Of a DNA stretch of 33,359 nt, positions 2,926 to 31,599 are shown in pieces. The translations under genes and the position numbers were made by a program. The notes beneath the pieces were generated by a model. It worked only from the letters and a program-made list of their open reading frames with translations. It did not search any database and was not told the origin of the DNA. The stretch's first letter is position 1, and every line of letters begins with the position of its first letter. This stretch comes from a virus: the IMG/VR virus record IMGVR_UViG_3300024433_000027, positions 1 to 33,359 of that record. One strand, written 5' to 3'.

Positions 2926-2941
2926 TTTTGTGGGTGAGATT
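2926..2941 (+). repeat. dispersed motif copy 1 (TTTTGTGGGTGAGATT)
   Basis: Exact 12-bp core GTGGGTGAGATT on the + strand with a preceding T4. It fills the whole gap between the phosphoesterase stop and the next ATG at 2942. GGGTGAG could also act as a weak ribosome-binding site here. Confidence 0.9.
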
Positions 2942-7220: not shown

Positions 7221-7236
7221 TTTTGTGGGTGAGACT
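7221..7236 (+). repeat. dispersed motif copy 3 (one mismatch)
   Basis: TTTTGTGGGTGAGACT directly after the stop at 7220. Its last bases overlap the 5' acceptor strand of the tRNA-like RNA. The core differs by T to C at position 11. Confidence 0.85.
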
Positions 7237-7390: not shown

Positions 7391-7406
7391 TTTTGTGGGT
7401 GAGATT
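7391..7406 (+). repeat. dispersed motif copy 4 (TTTTGTGGGTGAGATT)
   Basis: Exact core immediately after the 3' acceptor strand of the tRNA-like RNA. It forms a direct repeat with copy 3, 170 bp away, bracketing the RNA. Confidence 0.92.
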
Positions 7407-9336: not shown

Positions 9337-9545
9337 TGATGGACTTCTTCGACGACCTCAACGGTGAACCAGACCCCTACGAGCCCTGTAGGGGGTGTGG
9401 CCGCGAACCTGGTGAGTGTGTATGCCCCGACGATCTGTACGACTTCGATCCGTTGGGAGAGACTAAGGACTACGATCCCGACTGGGATGACTATGTGGAG
9501 GACCTTAACCGTGACGAAGACGATGAGCCCCAGGCCTTTAGCTAA
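9336..9545 (+). CDS. small acidic Cys-containing protein
   Basis: A 69-aa, strongly acidic protein (many Asp/Glu) with C18xxC21 and C28xC30 near the N-terminus. The ATG overlaps the ATPase stop (TAATG), with AAGGA just upstream; a second ATG follows immediately. Its 3' end overlaps the GroES gene by 23 nt. Compact, highly acidic phage proteins are often protein-binding mimics or inhibitors, but there is no direct evidence for that here. Confidence 0.55.
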   Translation: MMDFFDDLNGEPDPYEPCRGCGREPGECVCPDDLYDFDPLGETKDYDPDWDDYVEDLNRDEDDEPQAFS

Positions 9546-9807
9546 AAAGATTCTGGTGGTACATGAAGCTGCCCCTGAGACAACGGAGGGCGGTATTGTA
9601 ATCCCCGACAGTGTGAAGGAGAAACCCCAGTTCGCCCGGGTCATCGCTGTGGGACCAGACACAAAACACATTCTTGTGGGTGAGATTGTGATCTACTCCT
9701 CCTTCGCAGGGACCCCCCTGAGTCTGGACGGTCAGGAGATCGTGATCGTAGATGAGGAGGACGTGCTCGTCCGCTTCGAGGAAGAAGGGGCATCCGATGA
9801 CGACTAG
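9523..9807 (+). CDS. groES: GroES-like co-chaperonin
   Basis: This 94-aa protein matches bacterial GroES (usually about 95 aa) along its length: the mobile-loop segment ETTEGGIVIPDS (19-30) followed by VKEKPQFARVIAVGP, then VGEIVIYSSFAGTPLSLDGQ and the final strand EEDVLVRFE. It would cap host GroEL during folding of phage proteins such as the coat, as T4 gp31 does. No GroEL is present, so it must use the host ring. I chose ATG 9523, which gives normal GroES length. A copy of the dispersed motif is in frame and encodes residues 51-55 (LVGEI). Confidence 0.88.
   Translation: MSPRPLAKKILVVHEAAPETTEGGIVIPDSVKEKPQFARVIAVGPDTKHILVGEIVIYSSFAGTPLSLDGQEIVIVDEEDVLVRFEEEGASDDD
9673..9687 (+). repeat. 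dispersed motif copy 6, inside groES
   Basis: Exact 15-mer CTTGTGGGTGAGATT, in frame in groES as Leu-Val-Gly-Glu-Ile. Its presence within a conserved coding segment shows the motif is not only intergenic. Confidence 0.92.
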
Positions 9808-10309
9808 AGAAAGAGTCCTCCGCCACTTGGAGACAGCGGGGGATTTCGGGGTCACAGTAGCGGACTTCCTCACTAGCCACCCCTACATGAAACCACAATC
9901 GGTTTACCCTGTCTTCACGAAGTTGTGTGCAGAGGGTCAGATTAGGGACAGCCGCAAACGCCGGCGAACTAGGAGCACGCCCCGCCGCTGTATCGTATGG
10001 TGGTTGTCACGCTACGGTGGTACAGTCCCAGTGTGGGGTTCCGGCTCCCCCCGGTACTCCTACTCAAACCGGGCGAGGATCGTTCTGGATATGTTAGCCG
10101 CTCATGGACCCAGGACTGCCCCCGAATTAACCGTTTGGGGTGGCCCCCGGCTGACTTCAATCGGAACCTCCTCTCTACTGTCCTCGTTGGCTGCTCAGGG
10201 GTGGGTCCGCAAGACTAAAGAGCGACGAATCTCACCCACAAGTAACCGTCGGTGTATCGTGTGGGACATTACCGCCCTCGGGCGGTCCATCAGAGGAGAA
10301 TCGAAATGA
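9797..10309 (+). CDS. tandem winged-helix protein, possible regulator
   Basis: This 170-aa basic protein seems to be an internal duplication. Each half (about 3-70 and 92-157) has three helices, then a wing ending in the same string RRCIVW (63-68 and 151-156). The pattern of helix, recognition helix (SVYPVFTKLCAEG; SSLLSSLAAQG) and charged wing is that of winged-helix DNA-binding domains. Two domains in one chain would suit a long asymmetric site, so it is a candidate reader of the dispersed motif, one copy of which lies in its own gene. That link is inference only. The ATG at 9797 overlaps the groES stop, with AAGGGG 6 nt upstream. Confidence 0.65.
   Translation: MTTRERVLRHLETAGDFGVTVADFLTSHPYMKPQSVYPVFTKLCAEGQIRDSRKRRRTRSTPRRCIVWWLSRYGGTVPVWGSGSPRYSYSNRARIVLDMLAAHGPRTAPELTVWGGPRLTSIGTSSLLSSLAAQGWVRKTKERRISPTSNRRCIVWDITALGRSIRGESK
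10228..10242 (-). repeat. dispersed motif copy 7, inverted
   Basis: Exact AATCTCACCCACAAG on the + strand, inside the tandem winged-helix gene (encoding ISPTS), 63 nt before the next gene start at 10306. Confidence 0.92.
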
Positions 10310-10593
10310 TACATTATTGCGACGTGTGTGGTGGACCTCTCCCTCCGGGGGGTCACATTAGAACCCAAAGCGTCCGGTCGGAGGAGTTGGCTGCCGGCCC
10401 ACCGTCTGAGGATTCACCTGGTCGAAAGGCCCCGTCCGGTATGGCTTTCGGGACACTCGACCACTCGGCCCTCTTCCTGGCCGAGGTTGACGTGCAGCCT
10501 CGCGTTGAGGTGCGGGTTCCCCCAGCATGGCGGGGTCTATCCCTAGAAGAGCAGGTGCGGAAGCTCCAAGCTCTGTTGCAATCAATTGGATAA
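10306..10593 (+). CDS. small CxxC protein at end of left operon
   Basis: A 95-aa protein beginning MIHYCDVCGGPLPPGGH, a half zinc-ribbon-like knuckle with only one clear Cys pair. The C-terminus has a short amphipathic helix (SLEEQVRKLQALL). GAGGAG lies 7 nt before the ATG, and the start overlaps the previous stop. Its last 236 nt are antisense to the end of the large - strand virion gene, so both cannot vary freely. Function unknown. Confidence 0.6.
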   Translation: MIHYCDVCGGPLPPGGHIRTQSVRSEELAAGPPSEDSPGRKAPSGMAFGTLDHSALFLAEVDVQPRVEVRVPPAWRGLSLEEQVRKLQALLQSIG

Positions 10594-13500
10594 ACTGGTC
10601 TCTCGCGGGGCCGGGAGGCATGGTACGGACCATCTGCTCAAGGCGGGCGGTCCGTCTTCGTACCTGCATAGCCTCGATGTGCTGCTCGGTCACGGGCAGA
10701 GCAAATCCAAATTGCTTGACGAACCGCTCCGCGATACTCTGGGCCGTGTCCGCATCGTTCTTGAGGCGAGCGTCCAGGTAGTCCCGCCTGGTCTCACGGA
10801 TTGCATCCCGGTTCTTGACCAGTAGGGTCATCAGCTCCTGCTCTGCGGCCTGGTCCCCCGTGCGGACTCCGAGCCCCATCCTTATCAGTTCCCAGGGGGT
10901 GAAGAATCCCTTGAGGGCTCCCTTCCCAGAGTACACAGCGATGCGGCCATCTGGGGCCGGCTGCTCGTAGTCAGCGTAGGTCCGCTGGAACAGTTTGGCG
11001 GCTCGCTGCCCCGGGGCTCCGGCCTCACCTGGGAGTAGGCCCATCACTCGGAATGCTGAGACACCACCGGGGATCAATAGGGGAGTCGATCGCATGGCTT
11101 CCGAGAAGTCCCCCGTTGCGAGGCTGTAGCCCACGCTGCCGGCAAGCTGGAACGCCGGTGGGATAATCGGAAATCCACCGAAGGCCCCCTCCCGTCCTTC
11201 CTGGAACGTCGGCATGGCCCCCCCGAGCAGTGCATCCCGCATGTCCACCCCCGCGGCGTCCCCCAACTCCATAGCGAGGACTGACCCGGCAATCATTCGA
11301 GCGAATGTCCCCGGGTTCCTACCAAGGACGTTCCGAGGCTTCTTTGTGATGGGATCAATGTCCGTCACCCCCAGATTGAATGCAGTGTGTGTTGCGAACT
11401 CCAGCATCCGGAGGGGGAACTGCATCAACTGTCGGACCAGAGGATTCTTGTCAACCAAGAAGTAGGGGGTATTCTGTGGCCCCGTCAAGAACTGTGTCTC
11501 CTCCACCAGTCTCGCTGCGAACTTGTGGGCCTTCTCCACTGGCATCCGGGACCTCTTTGCATGGAGAATCCCCGCCTCCCACGTGCTCAGCCGCACAGCA
11601 GTTTCCGAGGCCGTAAAGATCGCCATCATGGCCGCCGAAATCTTCTGGCCGACGTTCCTCAGCTTCCCTGTAGGGAGAGCCGCAATGTTGTGAGCATTCT
11701 CAAAGGAGTTTAGGAGTACCACATCTGTAATTGGAGCCGCTGCTACCCCACTCTTCCCATATTCCGGCCATGCGAATCGAATCGCAGCATCATGGCTCAG
11801 TTTTCGAGGTCCTAGCCGGACGGCAAAATACTTGTGGGACTTCTGCATAGCCCGCATCAACCCGGTGGCAGCAGTTCTGTAGCCCACCACATTACCAGTG
11901 GTAAGAACCAGTTGGAGCATGTTCTTCAGGGCGGACGCGGGGTTCATCCCCAGCGTGCTCAAGTAGAACCACCCCGCGGCTCTCTGACTCATGTTGACGT
12001 AGGAGAACGCTCCCCGATTCGTTACCATTTGCTGGGCCATAGTCTTCGAGAGGCCTTCCCCGAGTACCCTCCTGACCTTCGGGGTCTGCGTCCACGCTGC
12101 GAGCTGGTGCATACTCTGGTCCCAGGCCTGTGCTTTCAATGCTCCCTGCATTGTCCCCCGCCCGAGAGCCATCGGGATGTACGTATCCTCCAACATTTGA
12201 GCCCGCATCTTCGCATAGGCCGACCCTGGTACATCATCCCGGCCTAGGGTCTTCAACATGACGAGCTGTTCTGTAATCTTTTCCCCACCCCCCTTGATCG
12301 TCCAGCCATACGTGTGAGACAACGTATGCCGGTACGACGACAACACCGGCAGTAGCTTCAAACTGTACGGCTTAGGTTTTGCCCTCGCAAAGATGAGTGC
12401 GAACTCCTCCGCCTCCCCACGGCTCATTAGCTTCGGGTAATGCTCCTGAATTGTCGCCAGGTCATACTTCTCTAGCTTTCGGAGTGTCTGGAGAGCCAAG
12501 TCTCCCTCAGTCCTCGCCGACTGGAGAACCTTCGCCTTAACTACCTCCTCCAACCGCGTCATCTGTTGCGGGTCTACCAGGTCCCCCAACCCTTTGAGGT
12601 CCTGGACGGAGGGGAGCATCCCGAACTCCCGCTTATATGTCTCTGGCCCCAACCACCGCATCGACTTCCGTTCGGCTGACCGAGCAAACGCCTTCAGTCC
12701 AGCAGTGTTCGTCATCGCGTACATGAGCTGCCGGAAGTCCTCCTCACTCTGAAGAAGCCGGTGTGGGAAGTAGTCCTTGACCTTCCTGGGATGCTCGATG
12801 AACTCTCGCATCGAGATAGAGAGTTCGTCAGCCCACCCCTTCTTCTCCAACCCCTGAATCACCTGAGCCAGTCGCTCTCGGTTCTTCACACTCCCAAACG
12901 ACCTCTCCCACATATCGTCCAGGATAACTCGCGTGTCTCCTGCAAACTGCCGCAGGGCCGGCGTCATCTGCCGCTCCAGGTTCGGGAGTAGAGCCCCCAC
13001 CGCCGGCACCACCCTCCGTCCTTCCCCCTTCCCAATTGTGATAACTCCCCTCGTCCCCTGGAACCCCCGCAGTGGCTTGTGTAGTCCGTCCAGCCACGCC
13101 GCAGCCATGAGCTGCTCCCGTTGTGTCAGGTCCCTCCCGGTTCTCGCCTTGAACCGATTGAGAGCCGTGAGTGTCGCCCCCTCGTACCTCGACTGGAAAT
13201 CCCGTACATCCCGCACGACTCCCCCAAAGATTTCCGGTACCTTAGTCCCTCGATACAACCCTTGCATCGACGCGAGCCGCCCCAGAATCGGGAACCTCCT
13301 CGTCATCGCCTTGATTGCATTTTCCGCCCGAAAGATATTCTTCGCAGACGCGACTGGGAACTTGTAGCACAGTGCCAGTGACACCAACAGCACCGGATTC
13401 GTCACGGCTCGGAACAGCCGGCCCCACGGCCCCGTATCCAGCCCGTGCTCCTTCAAGAAGGCATCTCGCTCCTTCACCGTCAACGTCTGAGGGGTAAACA

Positions 13501-13609
13501 TCGCCCGCATACCGGCGTCCAGGTCCCCCAGCATCAACTGCTGGGCAGCCTGTCCAGGCCGCTCCAGGGCTCCTACGTCCGCCGGCAATGCCCCGATCTC
13601 AAGACCCAT
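10358..13609 (-). CDS. large internal virion / DNA-ejection-type protein
   Basis: At about 1083 aa this is the largest protein in the window and the last of the virion operon. It is mainly helical with scattered hydrophobic stretches (for example NPVLLVSLALCYKF near the N-terminus) and a Pro/Arg-rich C-terminal tail. Size, composition and position after the tail genes match the large inner-core or ejection proteins of podoviruses such as T7 gp16, though no sequence motif such as a transglycosylase site is seen. Possible starts are GTG 13648, ATG 13624 and ATG 13609. I prefer 13609 because GGGGGG lies 7 nt upstream. The tail of the gene overlaps the convergent gene by 236 nt. Confidence 0.65.
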   Translation of the reverse strand: MGLEIGALPADVGALERPGQAAQQLMLGDLDAGMRAMFTPQTLTVKERDAFLKEHGLDTGPWGRLFRAVTNPVLLVSLALCYKFPVASAKNIFRAENAIKAMTRRFPILGRLASMQGLYRGTKVPEIFGGVVRDVRDFQSRYEGATLTALNRFKARTGRDLTQREQLMAAAWLDGLHKPLRGFQGTRGVITIGKGEGRRVVPAVGALLPNLERQMTPALRQFAGDTRVILDDMWERSFGSVKNRERLAQVIQGLEKKGWADELSISMREFIEHPRKVKDYFPHRLLQSEEDFRQLMYAMTNTAGLKAFARSAERKSMRWLGPETYKREFGMLPSVQDLKGLGDLVDPQQMTRLEEVVKAKVLQSARTEGDLALQTLRKLEKYDLATIQEHYPKLMSRGEAEEFALIFARAKPKPYSLKLLPVLSSYRHTLSHTYGWTIKGGGEKITEQLVMLKTLGRDDVPGSAYAKMRAQMLEDTYIPMALGRGTMQGALKAQAWDQSMHQLAAWTQTPKVRRVLGEGLSKTMAQQMVTNRGAFSYVNMSQRAAGWFYLSTLGMNPASALKNMLQLVLTTGNVVGYRTAATGLMRAMQKSHKYFAVRLGPRKLSHDAAIRFAWPEYGKSGVAAAPITDVVLLNSFENAHNIAALPTGKLRNVGQKISAAMMAIFTASETAVRLSTWEAGILHAKRSRMPVEKAHKFAARLVEETQFLTGPQNTPYFLVDKNPLVRQLMQFPLRMLEFATHTAFNLGVTDIDPITKKPRNVLGRNPGTFARMIAGSVLAMELGDAAGVDMRDALLGGAMPTFQEGREGAFGGFPIIPPAFQLAGSVGYSLATGDFSEAMRSTPLLIPGGVSAFRVMGLLPGEAGAPGQRAAKLFQRTYADYEQPAPDGRIAVYSGKGALKGFFTPWELIRMGLGVRTGDQAAEQELMTLLVKNRDAIRETRRDYLDARLKNDADTAQSIAERFVKQFGFALPVTEQHIEAMQVRRRTARLEQMVRTMPPGPARDQFIQLIATELGASAPALLGIDPAMLGEPAPQREAARQPRPGRGPSGRVSRKPYRTGPFDQVNPQTVGRQPTPPTGRFGF

Positions 13610-13769
13610 ACCGTGGCCCCCCATCCGGTGACAATTCTGCCCTCGCACAACTTAGACAGATCAACTCTAACTTCTGGCCCCTGTAGGTTGGCACGGCCAT
13701 TGCCATGTCATGCCACTGCTGGCACCTGTGGCAATAGAAATGATCCTGATTCTCTTTCGTTTCAACCAT
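13599..13769 (-). CDS. 56-aa zinc-ribbon protein
   Basis: A small protein with C13-H-R-C16 and C38-L-S-C41 (CxxC twice), a zinc ribbon. ATG 13769 has a perfect AGGAGG 6 nt upstream; the earlier ATG at 13775 touches the AGGAGG directly and is less likely. A motif copy lies just before the ribosome-binding site, an arrangement identical to that at 3427-3454. The gene is inserted between virion genes, and its stop overlaps the start of the large virion gene. Role unknown. Confidence 0.65.
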   Translation of the reverse strand: MVETKENQDHFYCHRCQQWHDMAMAVPTYRGQKLELICLSCARAELSPDGGPRYGS

Positions 13770-13781
13770 AACCATCCTCCT

Positions 13782-13796
13782 CTTGTGGGTGAGATT
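13782..13796 (+). repeat. dispersed motif copy 8
   Basis: Exact CTTGTGGGTGAGATT on the + strand, hence AATCTCACCCACAAG upstream of the - strand zinc-ribbon gene. It occupies the 26-nt gap between two - strand genes and touches the stop codon of the upstream one. Confidence 0.92.
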
Positions 13797-14041
13797 TATG
13801 CAAGGTGTCGTCCCTGGATGGGGGTATCTACGGGGGCGGGGTGCCAGTCGTTTGTGAGGAAGTCTGCGAGAAGGGGAGTCCATCGCTTAGGTTCCTTCCC
13901 TCTTTCGTGAAACCACATCTCCCCCTTGGGTCCCTCGACTGACACATAGCGTCGGCCCCCAAAAGCCCAACACACACCCCAACCCGAACGTGTAAATACT
14001 CGTCCGTCCCGGAGGCCCTCTATTGCTTCTTGGAACGTCAT
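13796..14041 (-). CDS. DUF2829 / Tad2-like protein, candidate anti-Thoeris
   Basis: This 81-aa protein follows the DUF2829 pattern: MTFQEAIEGLRDGRVFTRSGW at the N-terminus with R18 and W21, a short beta region, then W54-TPLLADFLTNDW66 as the closing segment. DUF2829 includes Tad2, which sequesters the signalling nucleotide made by Thoeris defence. The length fits the family (about 80-90 aa). The ATG overlaps the upstream stop (TAATG), with GGAGGGG 5 nt before. It is a non-structural gene sitting inside the virion operon, as many anti-defence genes do. Other DUF2829 roles cannot be ruled out. Confidence 0.6.
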   Translation of the reverse strand: MTFQEAIEGLRDGRVFTRSGWGVCWAFGGRRYVSVEGPKGEMWFHERGKEPKRWTPLLADFLTNDWHPAPVDTPIQGRHLA

Positions 14042-15219
14042 TACATCCCCTCCATCTCACCAAGGAGTTGGTCCAAGAGGTACTTCATCTCCTCGGGGCT
14101 TCGTTCTTTCTGGGCTGGCTGGCTTGCGGCTGTCCCCAGGGCCATCTCGCTCCGGGTGAGGGGTCCACGTCCGACCTGCCCGGCGAGGGCCTGGATAACC
14201 TGGTTCATCAGGTCCGGGTCCTTGTTGAGCATCACCCGACGCCGTGAGATCGCGTCCCGCTTCGCTAGAATCTCCCGGATCATCTCCAGGGATTGCAAAG
14301 GCTGTCCAGTCCCACCCCGACTGGCCTCCACCATCGCACGGGCTCTCTTCTTCTTACCGACGAGGCTGTCGTATAGGCCCCACCCAACGAGACCCGCTCC
14401 GATTATCGGGCTGGCTCGACCTAACCCCCGCAAACCTCTCGAGACTTTCCCGAGCCCTTTGACCCCCTGCTTTCCGGCAGCCTTCAGGACTCCCGGCTCT
14501 GGCGGCGGCAAAGCCCCCGGCCTGGTGACCCCCATCTTCCGGGCTGCTTTCCCAACTCGTGTGGTGGGCTCCCCCCCAACCTCGAAGCCTTGGACTCGTG
14601 CCAACTCACTCTTGATCTCCGCGGAGAGCTGGGGCCGTCGTTTCCCCCAACCTCCGGGCTTACCTTTACTGAGGGTCCACGCCCACATCTTCGCAGCGAG
14701 AGTCTCCGGTCGAGCTGATTCCAGGGAGGACAGTACCCGGGCTGCCCCGAACCGCCCGATCACCTTGGGGCCGACCTTCCGAAGGTCCGCGATGGCCTCC
14801 GCCGGTACCCCCGCCTTCTTGGCCATACCCAGGGCTTGCTCCAGGTACTTCTTCTGGATTACTGGAGGCACACCCTTGGGATACTGCCGTGCTAGAGAGA
14901 GCGTCTCGGAGACTAGAGCCTTCTGTTCCTTCGTCCCCGCTGCCTTCCAGAGGGCCTGCCCCAGTTTGTTTGGACTCTTCCTTAGAACATCTGGACCCTC
15001 GGCTTCGAGGATGTTGATAGCTTCCTCGGGAACCCCCTCCGCCCGCAGCGTCTCAATCACGGCTGCGAACCGCTCCTCCAGACCGGCCTTCTGCATCCAG
15101 ATTCGGCCCCAGTCTGCCATACGACGGAGGTTCCCAATGTCCTCGCCGGCACCGACGGCGGCTCCACCCTCGGCCAGCCCCAACACGTCCCCTGGATCAC
15201 TAAATGGGATTCTAGCCAT
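14041..15219 (-). CDS. internal virion-type protein with one membrane-like segment
   Basis: A 392-aa, Ala/Gly/Lys-rich and largely helical protein. A hydrophobic, Gly-rich stretch (SPIIGAGLVGWGLYDSLVG) in the second half, about residues 269-287, could enter a membrane; the C-terminus is helical and charged. Composition and position suggest an inner virion protein ejected with the DNA. No known family is recognised. GAGGTGG lies about 9 nt before the ATG, and it starts 3 nt after the upstream stop. Confidence 0.55.
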   Translation of the reverse strand: MARIPFSDPGDVLGLAEGGAAVGAGEDIGNLRRMADWGRIWMQKAGLEERFAAVIETLRAEGVPEEAINILEAEGPDVLRKSPNKLGQALWKAAGTKEQKALVSETLSLARQYPKGVPPVIQKKYLEQALGMAKKAGVPAEAIADLRKVGPKVIGRFGAARVLSSLESARPETLAAKMWAWTLSKGKPGGWGKRRPQLSAEIKSELARVQGFEVGGEPTTRVGKAARKMGVTRPGALPPPEPGVLKAAGKQGVKGLGKVSRGLRGLGRASPIIGAGLVGWGLYDSLVGKKKRARAMVEASRGGTGQPLQSLEMIREILAKRDAISRRRVMLNKDPDLMNQVIQALAGQVGRGPLTRSEMALGTAASQPAQKERSPEEMKYLLDQLLGEMEGM

Positions 15220-15222
15220 GTC

Positions 15223-15765
15223 TCAAACCACCTCTATCAAGAAAAGGTCTTCATCCCTGGGTTTTGAGGGAGGACCCTTCACGATGTCCCACCTCCAGCT
15301 TGGTCCTGTCGCTTGTAATACCCAGTCAAGTTGTGTGAATTCTCTCTCGTGAAATGCCCTCGCCTCCTCAATCTCCTCTTTCCTCCGCTTCCTTCTTAGA
15401 CACCGGGTTTGGTGGACCTGACTCATCACGGCTTTCCAAACCCACGCCGGACACCAAGGGTAGTCATCCTGGACCTCTTTTAACAGAAAAAGACCATCGG
15501 CAACCCCCCCGGCCCACATGGAAATGAAAAGATTGACGGTAGCCTTTCCCCCCAACACCTTCTTCAGTAGTGGAGCCTCAGAACAAGGATACGGTCCCCC
15601 ACCCTCGTTATCTTGCTTGCTGAAGGCTTGGAGAGCTGTACGCCCTATAGGGCAGGGGGCCACCCAAAAGGTTCTACAACAAGGTCCCCACTCCTCCCAC
15701 GCCCTCCGGTAGAACTCAAAGTTGCGTCGCGTCTTCACATCAATCTTTTCCTGAAATCCTCCCAT
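15223..15765 (-). CDS. hypothetical 180-aa protein
   Basis: I do not recognise this soluble protein. It is rich in Trp (e.g. WEEWG, WAGGVADG, WCPAWVWKAV) and Cys, with a charged helix RRKRRKEEIEEARAFHERE. The ATG at 15765 follows a motif copy by 3 nt, and GGTGAG inside the motif is the only ribosome-binding-like sequence, 6 nt upstream. This mirrors the gene at 2942. It is followed by an internal virion gene, then the Tad2-like gene, so it may also be an accessory host-takeover gene. Confidence 0.6.
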   Translation of the reverse strand: MGGFQEKIDVKTRRNFEFYRRAWEEWGPCCRTFWVAPCPIGRTALQAFSKQDNEGGGPYPCSEAPLLKKVLGGKATVNLFISMWAGGVADGLFLLKEVQDDYPWCPAWVWKAVMSQVHQTRCLRRKRRKEEIEEARAFHEREFTQLDWVLQATGPSWRWDIVKGPPSKPRDEDLFLIEVV

Positions 15766-15768
15766 AAC

Positions 15769-15783
15769 AATCTCACCCACAAG
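15769..15783 (-). repeat. dispersed motif copy 9
   Basis: Exact 15-mer reading CTTGTGGGTGAGATT on the - strand, 3 nt before the ATG at 15765, in the gap after the 142-aa gene. Confidence 0.92.
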
Positions 15784-15790
15784 AACTGGT

Positions 15791-16219
15791 TTATCTCTCT
15801 GTACTCTTGGGTCTCCGACCAAACACTGCCCGGGAGAGGCTACTGAAGTCCCCCCCTCGGCGGGGGTCAACTCGGCGAGCCAGGTCACGAGGGTTCATTC
15901 CCATTCTCGCGGCCACCGTAGCCAGAAGTCCCGTCTGCACACCGCCGGGGATGAGTCGTTCGTCCATCGTGCCGGCCCGAACTTGGGCAGCCCGTGCTCC
16001 CATCCGCCCCGGGGGGACTTCGTACTCCCGAGCCAGAGCCTCTTCGGACATCTGCTCGTGAGCCGCCCCCATCTGTGCTGTGGAAGCTAGGAACTGCTCC
16101 CTCTGTAGCTCTGCCTTCACATCCTCCTCGGGCGTCCCCCCCAGACGACGGATGACACCATCAATGAAATACCACGCAAGGATGGTTCCTCCGATAGCAA
16201 TAGGTGCAGGAATAGGCAT
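15791..16219 (-). CDS. 142-aa protein with N-terminal membrane segment
   Basis: The first 25 residues (PIPAPIAIGGTILAWYFIDGV) are hydrophobic and could span a membrane; the rest is charged and helical with Arg/Gly-rich parts. It lies between internal virion-type genes, so a small virion or ejection protein is likelier than a holin, which usually has little soluble tail. No family recognised. It starts 9 nt after the upstream gene. Confidence 0.55.
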   Translation of the reverse strand: MPIPAPIAIGGTILAWYFIDGVIRRLGGTPEEDVKAELQREQFLASTAQMGAAHEQMSEEALAREYEVPPGRMGARAAQVRAGTMDERLIPGGVQTGLLATVAARMGMNPRDLARRVDPRRGGDFSSLSRAVFGRRPKSTER

Positions 16220-16228: not shown

Positions 16229-18358
16229 CTAGTCTTGGGCCATCCCGGCGGCTGCCTGGGGCCACTGTGGACCCCGTGGGCTTGGCTGCCCCCCCGGAGC
16301 CGCCGGGGCTGGTTGTGGTTGCTGTAGTTGCTGACCCGGCTGAGCCTGACCGGACATCTCCTGCATCCGCTGGCGTTTCTGCTTCTGGTACTCCTTGACC
16401 TTCTGTTCAATGGAGGCCCGGTTCGCTGCGAAGAATGTGTCCCGTTCCAACTCTGCCTTATTGAAGTCTTCCATTTCCTTCAGACCACTAGGTAGGTCTT
16501 CGTCATACCCACCGGAGAGGATAGCCATCACAAGGTCCGTCTGCCCCGGCACCAGGGTGGACAACTCCACCATCGCCTCCATAGTGCTGATCTGGAGTTC
16601 GGCCTTGGGACTCGGGCGGAACTTCATCGACTCGATCTCCTCCAGAGTCATACCCTCCACGTCCTCTTCTAGCTCCCCTCGCATGGTTGCCAGGATTTTT
16701 GGCCCACCGATCCCGCGGGGCATTCCGTTCTCATCCTTGTTGGACTTCCAGGAGGTGACGAGCATGTCGGAGTACCGGCCCAAGAAGCCAGCGTCCGCCC
16801 GAAGCTGAGCCACGGGGGCCGACCGCTCCAGGGTATTGATACCTTGTGTCATCCGGGCACGGGCTCCCCCCAGCATTCGCCGGAGACCAGCCGCCACCTT
16901 TACCTCAGACGCCGCAGTGTACTTCTCCTTGACGAGCCAGGCTCCCCAATACTTCTCGACGTGGCCGGCGATGTTGGCTACGGTCTGTTCGTCCTGGGTG
17001 TCCATAAGCTGCCTCGCCATAGACGCCAACATGGAGCCCTCGGCAGCCGGAGCCGCCGATTGGGTAAGAATCCAGTTCGAGGCTGCTCGGAGTCCAGCCT
17101 TCACGTGGGCTGCCAGAAAGAACTCAGCGGGGGTGTCCAGCACCCGGTCCCCTGTGGTGATCTTGTCGTACTCGGCCAGTAGCTTGTCGGAGCCCTCCCC
17201 CAGGACCTCCCGTAGGACGTGCCGCTCCAATTCTTGTTCAGCATTCCCCCACTTCTTCTGCAACCGTCCAGGGTCCCCAGTCCCATCTCGGAGGAAGTTC
17301 TCCAGACCACGCAGTACCCCCTCAGAGGCTCGGTCCTCCATGACCTTGTGGGTCCGAGTCTCGAACTCCCGGAGTGGGCGAATGGAGGCGTCCACACGCT
17401 CCAACATCTGCATCTGCCCCTCTAGGTACTTGTCCCGGGCCTCCGCTGTCCCCATAATATTCAGAACCTCCTCATCCATGAGACCCTGCATGACGGTCCT
17501 GAAGTCAAAGACGGAAACATGGGGTAGCATCGGGTCGTCGGGGTCAGCTCCCGTCAACCCTCCGGGAAGGTAACCCCCACTGGACACGATCTGGTCGGCC
17601 TGCTCCTGGGTGATCTCCGGTAGTTCCCGACTACGCTCTCCGTCCGCGTCCGGGAGGGGGAGCATTAGAGGATCAACCTCAAGTTGGGTCAGGTCCATCG
17701 GGTCACGCCCGGCCATGATGTCCTGGAGACTCTCGTTCAGTAACTTCTTCGCATTCTTGAGGTACTCTGGCCTAAAGTGGTTCTCCGTCAGGATACGGGA
17801 GGTCGCCAGGTAGTTCTTGATCTTAGCCATTCGTGACGGGCCGTTTGGGGCTTGGTCCCACAGCCCGGACAACCACATATCCTCCACCCTCTTATCCATC
17901 GCCTCGATGGTATTCAGGACGGTACTCCGCTGCCGGTCAAACTCCACGATGTAGTCCCGTGTAGCGTCTCGCTGACCCTTCATGGCCTCCATCATGGAGA
18001 GTTGCTCATTCTGCATGTCCTTCTGAAGCTCTGCCTGGTACTGTACGAACTCCTCCTGGAACTGTCGCTCCTCCATCCGCTCCCCCTTACGTTCCTCCTT
18101 CTCCCTAACCTCCTTCTGTCGGGCCACGATCTGATTCAAAGCGTCGGTTACTCCCCGACCAATAGCACTCCCTTCCTCCGCCTGTGTCTCCTGCATCTTC
18201 CCAAAGGTGTCCAGCAGCTTCTTCATGGAGGCATCCTGTGACTTCGCAAACCCAGATAGGGCAATCTCCGCTGCACTAGGCCCACGAGGTCCCCCACCAC
18301 GCCGCCCACCTAGAGCTTCCTGGGATAAAAGTGGAATCTGTGGTTGCTGTCTCGGCAT
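16229..18358 (-). CDS. 709-aa coiled-coil internal virion-type protein
   Basis: A long helical protein with a charged coiled-coil region around residues 70-165 (KEVREKEERKGERMEER and following) and a Gln/Pro/Gly-rich tail (PGQQLQQPQPAPAAPGGQ). No enzyme motif is visible. The position, 4 nt after the 390-aa gene and before the membrane-segment gene, and the composition suit a podoviral inner-core or ejection protein. The role is inferred from context. Confidence 0.55.
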   Translation of the reverse strand: MPRQQPQIPLLSQEALGGRRGGGPRGPSAAEIALSGFAKSQDASMKKLLDTFGKMQETQAEEGSAIGRGVTDALNQIVARQKEVREKEERKGERMEERQFQEEFVQYQAELQKDMQNEQLSMMEAMKGQRDATRDYIVEFDRQRSTVLNTIEAMDKRVEDMWLSGLWDQAPNGPSRMAKIKNYLATSRILTENHFRPEYLKNAKKLLNESLQDIMAGRDPMDLTQLEVDPLMLPLPDADGERSRELPEITQEQADQIVSSGGYLPGGLTGADPDDPMLPHVSVFDFRTVMQGLMDEEVLNIMGTAEARDKYLEGQMQMLERVDASIRPLREFETRTHKVMEDRASEGVLRGLENFLRDGTGDPGRLQKKWGNAEQELERHVLREVLGEGSDKLLAEYDKITTGDRVLDTPAEFFLAAHVKAGLRAASNWILTQSAAPAAEGSMLASMARQLMDTQDEQTVANIAGHVEKYWGAWLVKEKYTAASEVKVAAGLRRMLGGARARMTQGINTLERSAPVAQLRADAGFLGRYSDMLVTSWKSNKDENGMPRGIGGPKILATMRGELEEDVEGMTLEEIESMKFRPSPKAELQISTMEAMVELSTLVPGQTDLVMAILSGGYDEDLPSGLKEMEDFNKAELERDTFFAANRASIEQKVKEYQKQKRQRMQEMSGQAQPGQQLQQPQPAPAAPGGQPSPRGPQWPQAAAGMAQD

Positions 18359-18362: not shown

Positions 18363-19535
18363 TTACCCCCCGAAGAAGGGAAGGAATCCGGCCACCCCTT
18401 CTATGATCCCCAAAATCATATTTGTCCGGGCCATCTTGTTCGCCATCTCTACGTTCTCATGCATGATGTCGAGGGTTTCATCCATGTGCCCCATCCTGAT
18501 CTCTGTCGATACGAGGTTGTTGATAGCCTGGTAATTATTTATCGCAGCCGGGGTTGTCAGAATCGCAGTCTCCGCAAGATGATCCAACATCGCTATCCTT
18601 GTCGTGTCGTTCGTAGCGAAAGCAGCAGCCCGATCCGCAACAATCGTCGAAATCTGAACGTTCCTCTGGTTCGTAGCCTGAGCATCCAGTTCCGTCAGCC
18701 GCACGTTCAACTCGCCCACAGCTTGGGAGGTAGCCGTAAAAGCCTGGCCAGCCGCGACTCCCATCGCCCCCCCTTCCTGGAGGCCAGTTGTCTCCACTGA
18801 CGTAAGCATACTCCCAAACTCTATGGCAACTTCGGCCTGTGTCTGGGTGAACTGGTGGGTTGTCGCCCCGATCGCCGGGGCGATCGCCATCGCTCCCGAC
18901 ATCCGAGCCTGCATCTTCATCGACTGAGCCTGAGCCGGACTGAGCTGCCCAGTCACTACCATCGCGTCGATCTGAGCGACCGCCTGGTTGACCTGCCCGT
19001 GCATAGTCTGGACGGCTGCGTCCATCGCGGCGGCCCGGCCCTGCATCACGTTCGAGAGGGCCTCATCCCGCTGGGTCCCCACCATACCCTCGGCATGTGT
19101 AAGCTGCTCCTGGAGTTTCCCCCCTTGCCGCTCGAATTCTGCTGCCACCCGCTGGGGTAGCCGGCTGATTTCGCCCCGGGTCTGCTGGATAGTGTCCCTG
19201 ATCTCTGTCAGCCCGGTCTCAGTAGTCGTCTCCGCTCGTGTAAATCCTGCCTCGGCCTCCTTCTGCCGCCGTTCAATCTCTGTCGATGTTCCTTCAGCTT
19301 GGGCGAGGCGATCTGCCTCCGTCCGCTTTTGCTCAGAAATATCCTCCTCCCCTGCCGCCCGGAGTTCCTCCCCTACGTCCCGAAGAGGATCGAGCGGGTC
19401 AGCCGGGGCTGTTCCTAGAGGAGTACCGACTCCGACTTCCCGGGTATCCTCCTCCTGCTCGCCGAGGGGACGACCCCCGAAGATTCCTCCCAAAATCCTT
19501 CCGAGACCACTCTTTGGGTTGTAAGTACCTGGCAT
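18363..19535 (-). CDS. 390-aa helical virion-type protein with hydrophobic C-terminus
   Basis: This Ala/Gln/Thr-rich helical protein has a Gly-rich N-terminus (LGRILGGIFGGRPLG), a long coiled-coil-like middle and a hydrophobic end NMILGIIEGVAGFLPFFGG. These features fit a membrane-active ejection or internal virion protein. GGAG is 9 nt before the ATG. A near-perfect sigma70 promoter lies directly upstream (19560-19588) and contains a copy of the dispersed motif, so this gene and the three or more after it can be transcribed separately from the tail genes. Confidence 0.6.
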   Translation of the reverse strand: MPGTYNPKSGLGRILGGIFGGRPLGEQEEDTREVGVGTPLGTAPADPLDPLRDVGEELRAAGEEDISEQKRTEADRLAQAEGTSTEIERRQKEAEAGFTRAETTTETGLTEIRDTIQQTRGEISRLPQRVAAEFERQGGKLQEQLTHAEGMVGTQRDEALSNVMQGRAAAMDAAVQTMHGQVNQAVAQIDAMVVTGQLSPAQAQSMKMQARMSGAMAIAPAIGATTHQFTQTQAEVAIEFGSMLTSVETTGLQEGGAMGVAAGQAFTATSQAVGELNVRLTELDAQATNQRNVQISTIVADRAAAFATNDTTRIAMLDHLAETAILTTPAAINNYQAINNLVSTEIRMGHMDETLDIMHENVEMANKMARTNMILGIIEGVAGFLPFFGG

Positions 19536-19559
19536 AGAAAGACACTCCGACTACCCACC

Positions 19560-19588
19560 ATTATAGTGGGTGAGATTGGTTTTGTCAA
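19560..19588 (-). promoter_or_regulatory. consensus sigma70 promoter with motif in the spacer
   Basis: On the - strand TTGACA (19588-19583), exactly 17 nt, then TATAAT (19565-19560): both boxes match the consensus 6 of 6. The last 12 nt of the spacer (19577-19566) are AATCTCACCCAC, the core of the dispersed motif. The expected start near 19553 leaves a leader of about 18 nt with a Shine-Dalgarno before the ATG at 19535. A protein bound to the motif would block polymerase. Confidence 0.85.
19566..19577 (+). repeat. dispersed motif copy 10 (core only), in promoter spacer
   Basis: Exact GTGGGTGAGATT on the + strand. The usual leading CTT is replaced by bases of the -10 box. Confidence 0.92.
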
Positions 19589-19593: not shown

Positions 19594-22134
19594 TTATGCA
19601 GATTGAGTCTCTGATGCACCCAGGATTCCCTTTACCAAGAGGGACTGTAGTTGGAAGTCAATATTGGACCCCACGAATTTCAAGTACGGGTACAATCGGA
19701 CATCTGCGGCGTTGACCCGCCCGACACACTGATCTGGGATGAGGCTGAGGTCCACCTCCGTACTCCTCAATACCTGGTTGTTCCGCTTGAAGCCCATCGT
19801 CACGAAGGCGTTGGGATCACTACCTCCGGTCTCGCCCCCGAAGTCACTGAACGCTACCGAAATGGCGTTCCCAGTCTTCCGGCAGAAGGGGTCCAGCCCC
19901 TGGGGACCAGAGAGCTGGGGCATCACTAGCTCCGTTACGACCGGAGCTACAGAATACTGGTCACCGATCGTCAGGGAATCCGACAGCCCGGTGACCGTCA
20001 GGTCCGTAGCCGAGCCGCGGGCTGTAACGGTCGCAATCTCACCCACAAGGTCTCCGCTCGTGATGTAAACCTTGTGTCCCACACAGTTTACGGGAAACGT
20101 AGCCCCGGTGTCAACGATGTGGGTTTGGGAAGCGGAGGTGACATCCCCGTTCACGGTCTCGCCGGCCCCCGTCCCACACATGGTACGCTTACCCATCTCC
20201 CTGGCAGCGTCGATGCAGGAGACGACTCCCGAGTCGTCAACGAAGTACGCCCGCTGAGGTCCGTCCGTCTTGACGTTGGGTCCGCCTACCAGGAACGTCC
20301 AGGGGCAATCCACCAGGCGGGTGACAGCCCCCGTGGACTCCCACAGGATGAAGCATTCATGTAGGGTCGGATTCAGGAGGATCAGGGCACCACAGGTCGC
20401 GTCATACTCCAGTATGACGGACTCCAAGGACTGAGCCCACTCCGCGTTGTCCTGGATAATCCGGTTCATGGAGGAGATCGACTGGATCGAGCCACTGTTC
20501 CCATCAATGGCTTTCATGCCGGCCTTCGTGATGATAAAGAGGACGTTACCAACTCCGGTCTGTCCGTGGCGAGACACCCCTCCGAGGCGGAACAGGAGTT
20601 TCGTTAGAGCCAAGGAACTACCGGAGCGTGTCACTTTGTAGACCGCCCCTGTACTCACAGCGAAGAGATGATCCCCCGCCCGCTCCAGCGATAGGAACTT
20701 CTCCCCCGCATCGTCCACTTCATACAAGTTCGCGGGAGGGAAGTTCTCCGGCTCCTGGGTAGTTAGGGTAGACCATACCAGGGATTCCCTTTTCTGCTCC
20801 GTCTCTGACCAGTCTACGTCCAGGGTTGCCGGCTCCTCCGGGTCCGTAACGCCCACGAGGAGGTTATCGTAAGTAGCGATACGCTTCATGCGGGGAGCCG
20901 GGAAGAACCCGTGATCGTAAGGATTATATGTGGGCTGCCCCACTAGTCCTTCGTCTACCCACCACGTTGATTCCGCATCCCAGGAGACTACCCCAGGCTC
21001 CGAGTCGTGCTCGTATGTTTGCTCTAATTCTGTCCGATCGTGTAACTCTCTATACTCATCCACTAGGTGTAGGGGTTGCATGAGTGTGTATTTATCCCAC
21101 TTCACTCCCGTATCGTTCACCAAGGTTCGCCAGAACCGGAACCCATCCATGTGGGGAATTCCCCACATAATCAGACACGTAGAGAGACTGGCAGGGGCTT
21201 TGATTTGCTGAGTATGTCCTCCCCCGTCCTCCGGTAGGCGGCATCCTCCAGGAATACGGTAGCCGACTGCTGCCGACCCCCCGTATGAGGGGTCCTCAGT
21301 ATACCAACGCATCCAGGACCGCAGGTTGTGCTTCCGGCTCACCTGTTCGACAGCATAGGTGTATGCCCCGGCAGCCTGTGAGTGACTTCCACCCGCATCG
21401 TATATCCCCGCGTAGAAGGCATAGTCTGATCCTCCCTGTACGAACTTGCCATCGGTACGGTCTTCATTCACTGGAATCCCTAGACACCGAAGAGGGAGAA
21501 GACCCATGAACCTGTGCTGGAGACCCGCCGAATAAGTATCCCAGTCGTTGACCTTGAAGTCCCAGAAGTACGCCTTGTTGTAGGGGAGGGCCATCTGGTG
21601 GAATGAGTCAACCCGGTCTCCCGCCGGGGACTCCGTAGCTCCCGAGGCCACGAAGTAGATGTACCGTCCGAGGGAGCACACATCATACTCGTCGGGGGTG
21701 CCTACCAACTTGAAGTCGTCCCAGGAGTCGAAGTCCTCCAGGCACACCACGTCTGAAGCAGGGGGACCACCAGAACTATCTTTATAGGCAAAGTACAAGG
21801 CAGGCCCAGTGCCTCCTTGGTTGTCTGCCAGGTAGACGAGCCCCTTCAGTGTATGGCCGGCAGTTCCCCGTTGGATGGAGACATACCAGGCTCCGAGGAT
21901 ATTGGCGATCGACTCGATCGTCGTTACACCTGTCTCGGGCTTGGGGACCCCGTGGACGGTAACGTCTGCCATCCCGGGGAAGGGTCGGACGGCCCCGAGG
22001 AATCGGCCATCGACGCCCGTAGCCTCCACTAACTGAGGAGGTGCTACGCCCGCACGGTTCACCTTATAGTCAGCTCCGGGGAAGAGAAGATCATACTTCC
22101 AAGGAGCATTCGGGTCGTCTCGTCTCTCTGCCAT
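19594..22134 (-). CDS. probable tail nozzle / stabilisation protein (beta-propeller type)
   Basis: This 846-aa beta-rich protein has repeated blade-like segments such as YDNLLVGVTD, GDHLFAVSTGAVYKVTR, VGNVLFIITKAGMKAIDG and RAYFVDDSGVVSCID. This is the look of podoviral tail nozzle or stabilisation proteins (T7 gp12, P22 gp10 type). Near the C-terminus GDLVGEIATVTARG contains the LVGEI encoded by a motif copy. AAAGGA lies 6 nt before the ATG. The position after the fibres and before the ejection-type proteins agrees. The assignment rests on fold pattern and context, not on a diagnostic motif. Confidence 0.6.
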   Translation of the reverse strand: MAERRDDPNAPWKYDLLFPGADYKVNRAGVAPPQLVEATGVDGRFLGAVRPFPGMADVTVHGVPKPETGVTTIESIANILGAWYVSIQRGTAGHTLKGLVYLADNQGGTGPALYFAYKDSSGGPPASDVVCLEDFDSWDDFKLVGTPDEYDVCSLGRYIYFVASGATESPAGDRVDSFHQMALPYNKAYFWDFKVNDWDTYSAGLQHRFMGLLPLRCLGIPVNEDRTDGKFVQGGSDYAFYAGIYDAGGSHSQAAGAYTYAVEQVSRKHNLRSWMRWYTEDPSYGGSAAVGYRIPGGCRLPEDGGGHTQQIKAPASLSTCLIMWGIPHMDGFRFWRTLVNDTGVKWDKYTLMQPLHLVDEYRELHDRTELEQTYEHDSEPGVVSWDAESTWWVDEGLVGQPTYNPYDHGFFPAPRMKRIATYDNLLVGVTDPEEPATLDVDWSETEQKRESLVWSTLTTQEPENFPPANLYEVDDAGEKFLSLERAGDHLFAVSTGAVYKVTRSGSSLALTKLLFRLGGVSRHGQTGVGNVLFIITKAGMKAIDGNSGSIQSISSMNRIIQDNAEWAQSLESVILEYDATCGALILLNPTLHECFILWESTGAVTRLVDCPWTFLVGGPNVKTDGPQRAYFVDDSGVVSCIDAAREMGKRTMCGTGAGETVNGDVTSASQTHIVDTGATFPVNCVGHKVYITSGDLVGEIATVTARGSATDLTVTGLSDSLTIGDQYSVAPVVTELVMPQLSGPQGLDPFCRKTGNAISVAFSDFGGETGGSDPNAFVTMGFKRNNQVLRSTEVDLSLIPDQCVGRVNAADVRLYPYLKFVGSNIDFQLQSLLVKGILGASETQSA
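20035..20049 (-). repeat. dispersed motif copy 11, inside the tail gene
   Basis: Exact 15-mer on the - strand, in frame in the tail gene as Leu-Val-Gly-Glu-Ile, the same peptide and frame as in groES. Confidence 0.92.
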
Positions 22135-24736: not shown

Positions 24737-26472
24737 TATGCCGGTTCCGTCGTCGTAACGACTTTCGTACCAAGATTCGGATTCGTAGACCGCCAGGCAT
24801 AGTAATCTTCGGTATACCCGTTGGCGTTGGTCACCGACACCGTTTCAGGGTTTTGGAATCCGCCCTCAAACCCCCCAACCCAAAACGCTACCAGCCCCAA
24901 TCGCTTCGGGAACGCGAAGAGCATGTACTCTCCCGCGCCGGTGGTCACCGCGTCCCACTCCTGCGTGTTGTCGTTCGTGACCTCCGAATTGGCGAGCCCC
25001 TCAATGTCCGCCTCGGTGAACGTGTCGGTCTTTACCGTCACACCGTAGTAGAGCGGGTCGATCGTCGCGTTGCCGGAAGAGGAGACGAGCGTATGGTCAC
25101 CAAGACTAGCAAGATTGGAAACGTAGACCTTGTAGTTCTCAGTGAAGCCCGCCGAGTTCGTAATACTGAGAGTCGAGCTATCAAGAGTCATCGCAATGGC
25201 AATACCGTTGTACGTGAAGCCGGTATGCCCGTCGGTCTCGTAGTCTGAGCCCGTCTTGATGGTTGTGTAAGTCGCTGGGTGCGCGAATACCAAGTAGTTC
25301 GTACCGACCGACGACAATGCCATGCTGCGGGTGGTGTCGTTACTGATCGCCTCGCTACCACCAGTAAGACCTTCGACCTGAGCCTCAGTCAGACTGCTCC
25401 CGTTCGCGTGGCTGCCCCAGATAATCAGATTGCGAAAGTAGACCGTTTCGGTATCCGTATCATTCTCCTCGCCTTTGTCTGCACTAAGCGTGAACTGGAT
25501 GTAGGTGTCCTTACTGGTCGGGTAGTTCGTAGCTTCCGTCGTACTCTTCTGGGCGTAGGGGGAATCCATTACGAGTGGGTTCGTACCCCACACCCCCCCA
25601 CCGCCGTTCGTTGCCATCGTGATAGTCGCCGCAGTCGGAGGCCCGTTGTCATACGTAGCGTCGAAGGTAATGTCCCCCGCTGCTTCCCACACTCCATCAC
25701 CAATAAGTTGTGTAGTTGCCTCGTTGTCGGTGAAACTAGCAATCGAGAAAGCAAAGGTGTAATCGTAGGCGGCGGGGACCCAGTTTGCACCATCCCACTT
25801 GAGAACCTCGTTCGTCTCCGGAGAATCAGTAGTCGTATCTACGTCGGCTACCGCATCCACACTTTCTGTGCGTTTAACATACTGTGCATGGTCATCGTCC
25901 TCCAGGCCCCCCAATACCCCATGATCTGTTACCGCATTGTCGTCTACGTATTTCTTGGTAGCCGGCTCGTAGTCCTGGTTAGGTGTGAACTCACGATCAT
26001 TGTTCACTGACAGATATTTCCTCACACCATCAGGCCATCCTAGAGGGTAGTCCCAGTCTAGGTTTCCTAGAAGGGTGATGAGTGTTTTCGTGTAATACCG
26101 AGCATCCCCCCGGGCATTGTTATGATACTGGGTATGGTCATCGTCCGCGAGACCGTCGAGGTTACCGTGGTCGGAGGTGCGGGTTCGCTCCAGCTCCTCA
26201 GCCAGGTCGGCTGTCTCTGCCACCATCCGGGCTATACTATCCAGGCTACCAATGCCCCCCGGCGTCTCATCGACGGGTACGATCTCAGGAATAGAAGTGA
26301 TTTGTTCCAGACGCTTAAGGATATTCTTCTCTGTGGGTGAGATTTCCTCCGCCTCGGGAAGAGTCTGGAAAGGGATTTGGTCAGCAAAGGCGGAGGCTAG
26401 AGGAGAGGACTCCCGGACAACCTGCCGCACCCGAGCGGGTGGGTGAGCCATACTCCGGGACCAATACCGCAT
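24736..26472 (-). CDS. tail fibre protein 1
   Basis: A 578-aa fibre-type protein. The N-terminus (1-100) is helical and probably anchors to the tail. It is followed by two copies of the DHG..GL.DDDH.QY motif (101-130 and 183-199), with YEPATKKYVDDNAV between, a widespread fibre sequence. The rest is a beta-rich shaft and tip ending with a repeated theme (AYAWRSTNPN-like). A motif copy at 26330-26344 encodes ISPTE near residue 44. The ATG 26472 lies 6 nt after the upstream stop. Confidence 0.78.
   Translation of the reverse strand: MRYWSRSMAHPPARVRQVVRESSPLASAFADQIPFQTLPEAEEISPTEKNILKRLEQITSIPEIVPVDETPGGIGSLDSIARMVAETADLAEELERTRTSDHGNLDGLADDDHTQYHNNARGDARYYTKTLITLLGNLDWDYPLGWPDGVRKYLSVNNDREFTPNQDYEPATKKYVDDNAVTDHGVLGGLEDDDHAQYVKRTESVDAVADVDTTTDSPETNEVLKWDGANWVPAAYDYTFAFSIASFTDNEATTQLIGDGVWEAAGDITFDATYDNGPPTAATITMATNGGGGVWGTNPLVMDSPYAQKSTTEATNYPTSKDTYIQFTLSADKGEENDTDTETVYFRNLIIWGSHANGSSLTEAQVEGLTGGSEAISNDTTRSMALSSVGTNYLVFAHPATYTTIKTGSDYETDGHTGFTYNGIAIAMTLDSSTLSITNSAGFTENYKVYVSNLASLGDHTLVSSSGNATIDPLYYGVTVKTDTFTEADIEGLANSEVTNDNTQEWDAVTTGAGEYMLFAFPKRLGLVAFWVGGFEGGFQNPETVSVTNANGYTEDYYAWRSTNPNLGTKVVTTTEPA
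26330..26344 (+). repeat. dispersed motif copy 12, inside fibre gene 1
   Basis: TCTGTGGGTGAGATT on the + strand: exact 12-bp core, with two differences in the leading CTT. It lies in the 5' part of the - strand fibre gene. Confidence 0.88.
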
Positions 26473-28535: not shown

Positions 28536-28550
28536 AATCTCACCCACAGA
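28536..28550 (-). repeat. dispersed motif copy 13
   Basis: TCTGTGGGTGAGATT on the - strand: exact 12-bp core, lying right after the T-run of the coat gene terminator and 24 nt before the ATG at 28511. Confidence 0.88.
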
Positions 28551-30609: not shown

Positions 30610-31599
30610 TTAGCCCTTTTGCATGTGGTGGGCTATGGTCTGCGTTATGGAATCCTCGAAACCAGTCTCCGTTGAAGGCACGTGATCGGGTGGCTTCGTC
30701 GGGTAGACTTGGTTTCCAGTACCGCCCGGTGCAGGCCCCAGCCCCATTTGGGGTGTGGTGCGACTCGGGGTGCCGATTGCCTCCAGGTGTGTCCGGACTT
30801 CCGGGATCACTTCACGGAGGATTCGAGCCCCGTCACCAAACTGGCCATCGGAATCATCCAATCGCCCTCGGATTTTCTCATCGACCATCTGACGGATGGC
30901 CTCCTTACCACGATCTTCGTAGCTGTTCATATAATACCTGATTACCTCGTCCGTGTCAAGTGCTTTTTCCACAATTTCTGAGATTCTTCTCTCCTCCACG
31001 TGGAGAAGGGCCGTCCGCACGTCGTCCGACAGGTTGTCGTACCCCACCTGATGACCTTCCAGCTCAGCTTTAACTTGGGACAAGAGCTGCCGGCCATCCA
31101 CCCGTCCGCCGGCCTGTGGCCTTCCACCAGTACCCTCTTGCTTGTCCCAGTACTGATTCTCGTCGTCGGGGTCGCCGTCCGGACCCACGCCCTCGTATAC
31201 GATCCGGGCGGCCTCTTCCACCTGGTCGCCTGGGAGGCCCATCGACGCACCGATACGCCGGAACGCATTGATGTCGCCGGTTTCCTTGAGCAGGTCGAAA
31301 TCCGCCTGAAGTCGGAGAGCCGTCTCGGCCCCTTTCCGCTGCTCGGCGGCCTCTTGGAACTTCTCGTCCGCCGCGGCTCCCTTCTGGGCGAAGGCTAGGT
31401 ACTGCTCCTCAGTGACCTGTTGGTCCTTCCCGTTCACGCGGATCGTCCGCATCTGTGGATGGGGAGCGTTCGCCAACTGTGGCGGCACCGCTGACGCCGG
31501 CACCTGGACCACGGGCGTGTTGTCCCCCGCATCCGTCGGAATCGGTACCTGTGATAACCCAGCACTCGGGCTCATGTTCTGAGCATTGTCATCTGCCAT
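30610..31599 (-). CDS. probable scaffolding protein
   Basis: A 329-aa acidic, helix-rich protein with a Pro-rich N-terminus, a Glu/Lys/Ala-rich middle (AADEKFQEAAEQRKGAETA) and a Gly/Pro-rich stretch before the C-terminal helix. Position between portal and coat and the composition are those of podoviral scaffolds. GAGGAG lies 7 nt before the ATG. The coding sequence contains a strong internal promoter for the coat gene. Confidence 0.7.
   Translation of the reverse strand: MADDNAQNMSPSAGLSQVPIPTDAGDNTPVVQVPASAVPPQLANAPHPQMRTIRVNGKDQQVTEEQYLAFAQKGAAADEKFQEAAEQRKGAETALRLQADFDLLKETGDINAFRRIGASMGLPGDQVEEAARIVYEGVGPDGDPDDENQYWDKQEGTGGRPQAGGRVDGRQLLSQVKAELEGHQVGYDNLSDDVRTALLHVEERRISEIVEKALDTDEVIRYYMNSYEDRGKEAIRQMVDEKIRGRLDDSDGQFGDGARILREVIPEVRTHLEAIGTPSRTTPQMGLGPAPGGTGNQVYPTKPPDHVPSTETGFEDSITQTIAHHMQKG
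30931..30959 (-). promoter_or_regulatory. consensus-like sigma70 promoter inside the scaffold gene
   Basis: On the - strand TTGACA (30959-30954), 17 nt, then TATTAT (30936-30931): 6 of 6 and 5 of 6 matches. It would transcribe the rest of the scaffold gene, the endonuclease and the coat gene. The spacer has no dispersed motif, unlike the promoter at 19560. Confidence 0.65.

Follow-up and report, generated by a model that had tools for sequence, protein, structure and literature searches.

The minus strand of the window, by which we mean the whole stretch of DNA analysed (33,359 nucleotides, from an uncultured bacterial virus), carries a sigma70-type promoter with two perfect boxes, and 12 bases of its spacer are a copy of a motif that is dispersed through the window. 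From the arrangement of these sites here and in related phages we consider it rather probable that the spacer copy, AATCTCACCCAC, is an operator, where a protein probably encoded by the phage would block polymerase. We infer protein binding, and repression rather than activation, at this promoter.

From 19588 to 19560 the minus strand reads TTGACA-AAACC-AATCTCACCCAC-TATAAT. The spacer of 17 nt is AAACCAATCTCACCCAC, and the two boxes score 12/12 of the consensus. The sites are as follows.

19583..19588, minus strand: -35 box TTGACA, with TTGACT or TTGAAA as the counterpart in seven relatives
19566..19577, minus strand: copy of AATCTCACCCAC within the spacer, adjoining the -10 box (19577-19566), operator-like site
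19560..19565, minus strand: -10 box TATAAT, which is also TATAAT in 8/9 relatives
19553..19558, minus strand: GTGGGT, on the other side of the -10 box from its inverted partner ACCCAC (19571-19566)
19552..19553, minus strand: expected transcription start, from the spacing to the -10 box

TTGACA and TATAAT at a distance of 16 to 18 nt occurred once in the window and in none of 1000 dinucleotide-preserving shuffles of it. The pair is non-coding, lies ahead of a gene and fills the 58-nt gap between an 846-aa gene and the gene starting at 19535. The sequence and the shuffles thus confirmed the sequence-only reading in its claim of a perfect sigma70 promoter with the motif filling the 12 spacer bases beside the -10 box. 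The leader of its transcript would be about 17 nt. GTGGGT is a possible second half-site, albeit a weak one. The spacer copy deviates from the extended motif, in which ..CCCAC is followed by an A in 11/12 core copies; the sole exception is the spacer copy, where the T of TATAAT takes this position.

The promoter is flanked by the following genes.

19594..22134, minus strand: 846-aa gene immediately upstream of the promoter, with its stop 5 nt ahead of the -35 box
18363..19535, minus strand: first gene of the downstream unit, 390 aa
10358..18358, minus strand: remaining downstream unit, with a gene order largely kept in relatives; its genes are 16229-18358, 15791-16219, 15223-15765, 14041-15219 and 10358-13648

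The view that the promoter heads the genes beyond the 846-aa gene was supported, as its position is kept in relatives. The label of internal virion genes, which had been attached to these genes before, was not confirmed: none of their proteins convincingly matched a profile of PHROGs or PDB, and the matches to Pfam were all below threshold. The 846-aa protein matched nothing in about 50,000 phage records.

A working model can be put together from these elements. Host RNA polymerase would use 19588..19560 as a consensus sigma70-type promoter and would transcribe from it the block of genes that follows the 846-aa gene. A sequence-specific DNA-binding protein would bind the spacer as an operator and shut polymerase out. 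Exclusion of polymerase is the commonest effect of proteins bound in a promoter spacer. The same protein would also occupy the other copies of the motif, several of which are at gene boundaries; there it may add elongation blocks or serve another role.

In the window the motif occurs 11 times without a mismatch, in either orientation. If up to 2 mismatches are allowed, 21 copies were found versus 3.67 expected, and no 12-mer reached more than 3 copies in Markov-3 simulations. The core AATCTCACCCAC is asymmetric, without dyad symmetry. Seven of the 11 exact copies are non-coding compared to 3.6% non-coding DNA (P=2e-8, hand-made gene list); with a mechanical gene caller, which left 12% of the DNA non-coding, the count was 9/12 core copies. 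The copies besides that of the spacer are these.

2930..2941, minus strand: 5 nt past a stop codon
3427..3438, plus strand: directly 5' of a Shine-Dalgarno sequence and the ATG at 3454
7225..7236, minus strand: one mismatch, 5 nt past the stop of 6720-7220
7395..7406, minus strand: following a tRNA-like element
9676..9687, minus strand: within 9511-9807
10228..10239, plus strand: inside a tandem winged-helix gene
13785..13796, minus strand: 5' of a Shine-Dalgarno sequence and a small gene
15769..15780, plus strand: immediately 5' of the ATG at 15765
20035..20046, plus strand: inside the 846-aa gene
26333..26344, minus strand: coding DNA, kept in the relative G001
28536..28547, plus strand: 5' of a start codon, kept in G001

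When the window copies were randomised within their coding or non-coding class, a copy fell into the 58-nt gap with P 0.124. The coincidence of motif and promoter is modest in the window alone, and the case is made by the relatives.

Some of these places have features of their own. G001 has an inverted motif pair (GTGGGTGAG...AATCTCACCCAC) at 15920-15949, just 5' of a start codon, and the matching place in the window, 30571, holds a degenerate copy only. At 7225-7406 of the window a tRNA-like element of 159 nt has a motif copy on either side. Its acceptor arms are GACTCCC/GGGAGTC, its T-arm is CCGGGTTCGATTCCCGG and its fold has -65 kcal/mol; neither ARAGORN nor Rfam called it. The corresponding place in G013 is a tRNA-His with a motif copy alongside.

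Relatives were found with the 846-aa protein, one with the single sequence and ten with a two-sequence alignment. Neither the gene after the promoter nor the Sak4-like gene nor the DNA polymerase led to a viral relative when searched as a single sequence, and one scan of bacterial genomes for the host gave no relative either. The motif hits L003-L007 and the promoter-plus-motif hits L103 and L104 were single copies in lower-GC contigs and were taken as chance. The junction after the 846-aa gene is visible in ten genomes including the window, i.e. in nine relatives; G001 does not reach it. In seven of the nine the stop codon of the 846-aa gene is immediately followed by a promoter of 11/12 consensus bases and a spacer of 17 nt. 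In G006 TATAAT is present with a poor -35 box, and in G005 there is no gap at the junction. The spacers have diverged, with a GGCC end in most, and the motif of the window is absent from the junction in all nine relatives. Several of these spacers are inverted repeats, e.g. TAGGCCCCTTTGGGGCCTA in G007, and those ending in GGCC could serve there as an operator of another kind.

Each contig was also analysed for dispersed words of its own by k-mer counts in comparison with Markov simulations. A dispersed repeat was detected in every well-covered relative; that of G007 was weak. The words are given here by genome.

Window and G001: AATCTCACCCAC
G004 and G009: CAACCGGTCCCCACCAATGGC
G005: ACTCGTTCCCGT
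G006: ACTCATTCCCATTC
G008: CTCTCCCGGC
G012: CTCTCCCGGT
G013: TCTCTCCCGGT
G011: GACTCTACTCCTCTAC

The words of G008 and G012 differ in the last base, which is C in G008 (CTCTCCCGGC in 29/29 copies) and T in G012 (CTCTCCCGGT in 31/37 copies). At aligned sites of the two genomes the nine-base core is kept in 17/26, while the flanks are only about 77% identical, from which about two or three of 26 would be expected (0.77^9 x 26, our own arithmetic). Because the core is kept above this expectation and the words have changed genome-wide, they look like selected sites, the sequence of which changed in concert. Taken together, the words of the different phages point to a putative virus-wide DNA switch with a target sequence rewritten from species to species.

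Relative to the nearest gene, 83 copies had the same and 83 the opposite orientation (166 copies in 11 contigs, summed by hand). The lack of a strand preference suggests that the word is probably recognised as double-stranded DNA. This had been claimed before on the grounds that the spacer copy is not transcribed from the promoter it lies in. That argument carries little weight, as transcripts reading through from the genes upstream would include the copy; the claim itself is upheld by the orientations and by copies of relatives located 5' of the -35 box (see below). Coding DNA holds some two thirds of the copies or more in G008, G012 and G013, and most copies are away from any recognisable promoter. 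Right behind the stop of the gene beside the Sak4-like gene, the window and three relatives each carry a word of their own; the words differ but share one orientation (window 7225-7236, G012 8237, G011 8953, G006 22617).

Three relatives have their own repeat at the promoter of the 19560 type. In G008 and G012 the word is directly 5' of the -35 box, and in G006 an inverted pair of the word spans the -35 region. No repeat accompanies the promoter in G013, G011, G004, G009 and G007. The chance of a repeat in the gap was P 0.06-0.12 per genome under class-preserving placement in the genomes having one, so a single case proves little. Repeats at the junction in three of about six lineages would be roughly a 0.003 event by our own estimate.

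A second promoter is divergent from the DNA polymerase, in a region that the window and G001 do not cover. It scored 12/12 in G005, G006 and G011, 11/12 in G004 and G009, and 10/12 in the rest. In 8/9 genomes the phage's own word is located 5-54 nt past the -10 box, all eight in one orientation. Random placing over four lineages gave a probability of about 2e-8 with a null that ignores the preference of the words for non-coding DNA. The leaders of G008, G012, G013 and G011 show the word followed by a hairpin and a T-run resembling an intrinsic terminator, e.g. TGGGGGAGG...CCTCCCCCACATTTTTT in G012. In this layout, word and hairpin might act as a control element of the leader. The genes behind the second promoter were considered as regulators and rejected; we read them as beta-rich, virion-like sequences, and there was only one weak HTH match.

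The recurrence of private repeats at the 19560-type promoter (three relatives) and at the second promoter (8/9 genomes) makes the operator role that had been proposed for the motif plausible. The spacer as the place of the operator did not hold up equally: the own repeat is within the promoter spacer of no relative, and this placement is peculiar to the window.

A further site was dropped as evidence for promoters. At 30931-30959 of the window a promoter-like site of 11-12/12 is inside the coding gene 30610-31599, and such a site in coding DNA recurs in G005 (21249), G006 (2091) and G011 (32273). A conserved peptide would spell both boxes. The recurrence is probably due to this peptide and is a caution for promoter scans.

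If the motif is bound by a protein of the phage, a candidate reader is encoded in the window.

9797..10309, plus strand: tandem winged-helix protein, candidate motif reader, with the motif copy at 10228 in its gene

The protein matched Pfam PadR with 6e-5, which is below the curated cut-off, and MarR_2 with 0.012. Its two halves align with each other. An AlphaFold2 model showed helix-helix-helix-strand-strand twice with a mean pLDDT of 77; the pTM of 0.45 means that the mutual arrangement of the two winged-helix domains is uncertain. Foldseek with the single domains retrieved PadR and MarR regulators. The adjoining gene 9511-9807 is in the same protein cluster as a GroES-like co-chaperonin of G012 (Pfam Cpn10, 5e-18). 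The phage collection held no sequence relative of the tandem winged-helix protein, and homologues were found only in G008, G012 and G013; a supported split separates these three and the window from the rest. Because the homologues are confined to one clade, their link to CTC(A/T)CCC words counts as one event, and the other clades have dispersed repeats without a tandem winged-helix protein. The predicted recognition helices are the same in G008 and G012 while the words differ at the last base; the second wing differs between the two homologues. The assignment of this protein as the reader is tentative, and less likely than not.

How else could the distribution of the motif be explained? The alternative that weighs most, even though we think it rather unlikely, is that the motif is a DNA-binding site used across the genome mainly for something else, be it as an elongation roadblock or in genome organisation, replication, packaging or self-marking, so that the spacer copy would be a by-product of the preference for gene boundaries. 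The many copies in coding DNA, where aligned sites are still conserved, fit this explanation, as do the copies remote from promoters, which are the majority, the P=0.12 for a copy in the 19560 gap with class-preserving placement, and the post-stop copies beside the Sak4-like gene, where no promoter was recognised. Recurrence at the second promoter in four lineages and at the 19560 promoter in three would be unexpected, however.

The motif abuts the -10 box in the window and adjoins the -35 box in G008 and G012, as a site for an activator or a part of a phage-specific promoter might do. Yet boxes at or near consensus do not need an activator, no -10 box stands at a constant distance from the other copies in the window, half of the copies point against the genes, and no phage RNA polymerase was recognised in G004. 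We regard this role as improbable. The same applies with more force to a function in RNA as a ribosome-binding, antitermination or start-associated element, which is very improbable: the eight co-oriented copies in the presumed leader of the second promoter, followed by hairpins in several genomes, and the window copies just 5' of Shine-Dalgarno sequences would suit it, but the 83 to 83 orientation relative to genes, the copies in the spacer or 5' of the -35 box and the many copies within coding DNA would not. That promoter and motif are both real and overlap in the window by mere chance agrees with the absence of the motif from the spacers of the relatives. It is at odds with three relatives having their own repeat inside the same gap of about 60 nt, and we give it hardly any credence. 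An operator at the 19560 promoter thus is the reading we favor. The full combination is doubtful, namely an asymmetric, non-directional operator word private to each lineage, coding DNA included, words that change jointly during the divergence of lineages while the promoters under their control keep their place, and a reader in the clade of the window that binds as a two-winged-helix monomer.

A few temperate phages are known to have a single repressor that acts on many asymmetric sites as a network. The family here has so far shown no trace of lysogeny, and it seems to operate a network of this kind in which every lineage uses a word of its own. Word, promoters kept in place and candidate reader come as paired data, from which one can ask how the specificity of a DNA-binding protein changes in step with dozens of its sites. 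Another question to put to them is whether such scattered sites act in control, in genome organisation or in both.

Several known systems have short dispersed repeats. Start-associated sequences of cluster K (PMC3203893) and the motifs of Microbacterium phages EC/EF/EG/EI (PMC7302621) are short, well-kept non-coding repeats near gene starts, and some window copies likewise precede a Shine-Dalgarno sequence. They are mostly in one orientation and tied to start codons, whereas the words here have both orientations and are found after stops and in genes. We rejected a start-associated sequence on orientation, as the copies are not mostly one-way immediately 5' of start codons. Cluster O mycobacteriophages have more than 30 dispersed 17-bp repeats, about a third of them coding (PMC4351075). 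These phages, too, are not obviously temperate and the repeats are partly coding, but they have a dyad symmetry that the words here lack.

Cluster A mycobacteriophages (L5 group) have asymmetric words of ~13 bp dispersed over promoters and short intergenic gaps, which the repressor binds as a monomer via two DNA-binding domains (PMC9283540). The sites here are similarly asymmetric and dispersed, and the candidate reader could also bind as a two-domain monomer. It consists of two winged helices, in contrast to the HTH and the cluster A C-terminal domain of the repressor. Cluster A stoperators follow the direction of transcription. A stoperator system was rejected because this defining rule fails with 83 same versus 83 opposite copies over 11 contigs. 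Pfam and PHROG scans of many, not all, proteins showed no homologue of the L5-type repressor; the window genome is incomplete. SPBRE of SPbeta, a phage-wide 15-bp promoter repeat, was predicted in silico and later shown to be bound by the master repressor MrpR (PMC10516654). The words here resemble it as phage-wide short repeats found at promoters; they differ in that MrpR has a tyrosine-recombinase fold, the reported SPBRE peaks are in promoter regions and SPbeta is a prophage (PMC10516654). Family scans covering some, not all, proteins gave no tyrosine-recombinase match.

Operators of the P1 C1 repressor occur in both orientations and are sometimes paired, as in the phages here. P1 has 22 of these asymmetric 17-bp sites dispersed over its genome (PMC8546580). 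The sequence here is another one and is 12-16 bp long, and in the relatives many copies are coding. No C1-like protein was recognised, there is no sign so far that the phage of the window is temperate, and in G004 no integrase or known repressor family was recognised. The agreement with P1 is in sequence arrangement only, that is in asymmetric dispersed sites, several of them at promoters. We do not file the phages as members of the P1 C1, SPBRE/MrpR or cluster A families. By analogy, the arrangement would work most like the P1 C1 network, with its short asymmetric word in many dispersed copies, some beside promoters, and it also has a likeness to SPBRE/MrpR and to the operators and stoperators of cluster A.
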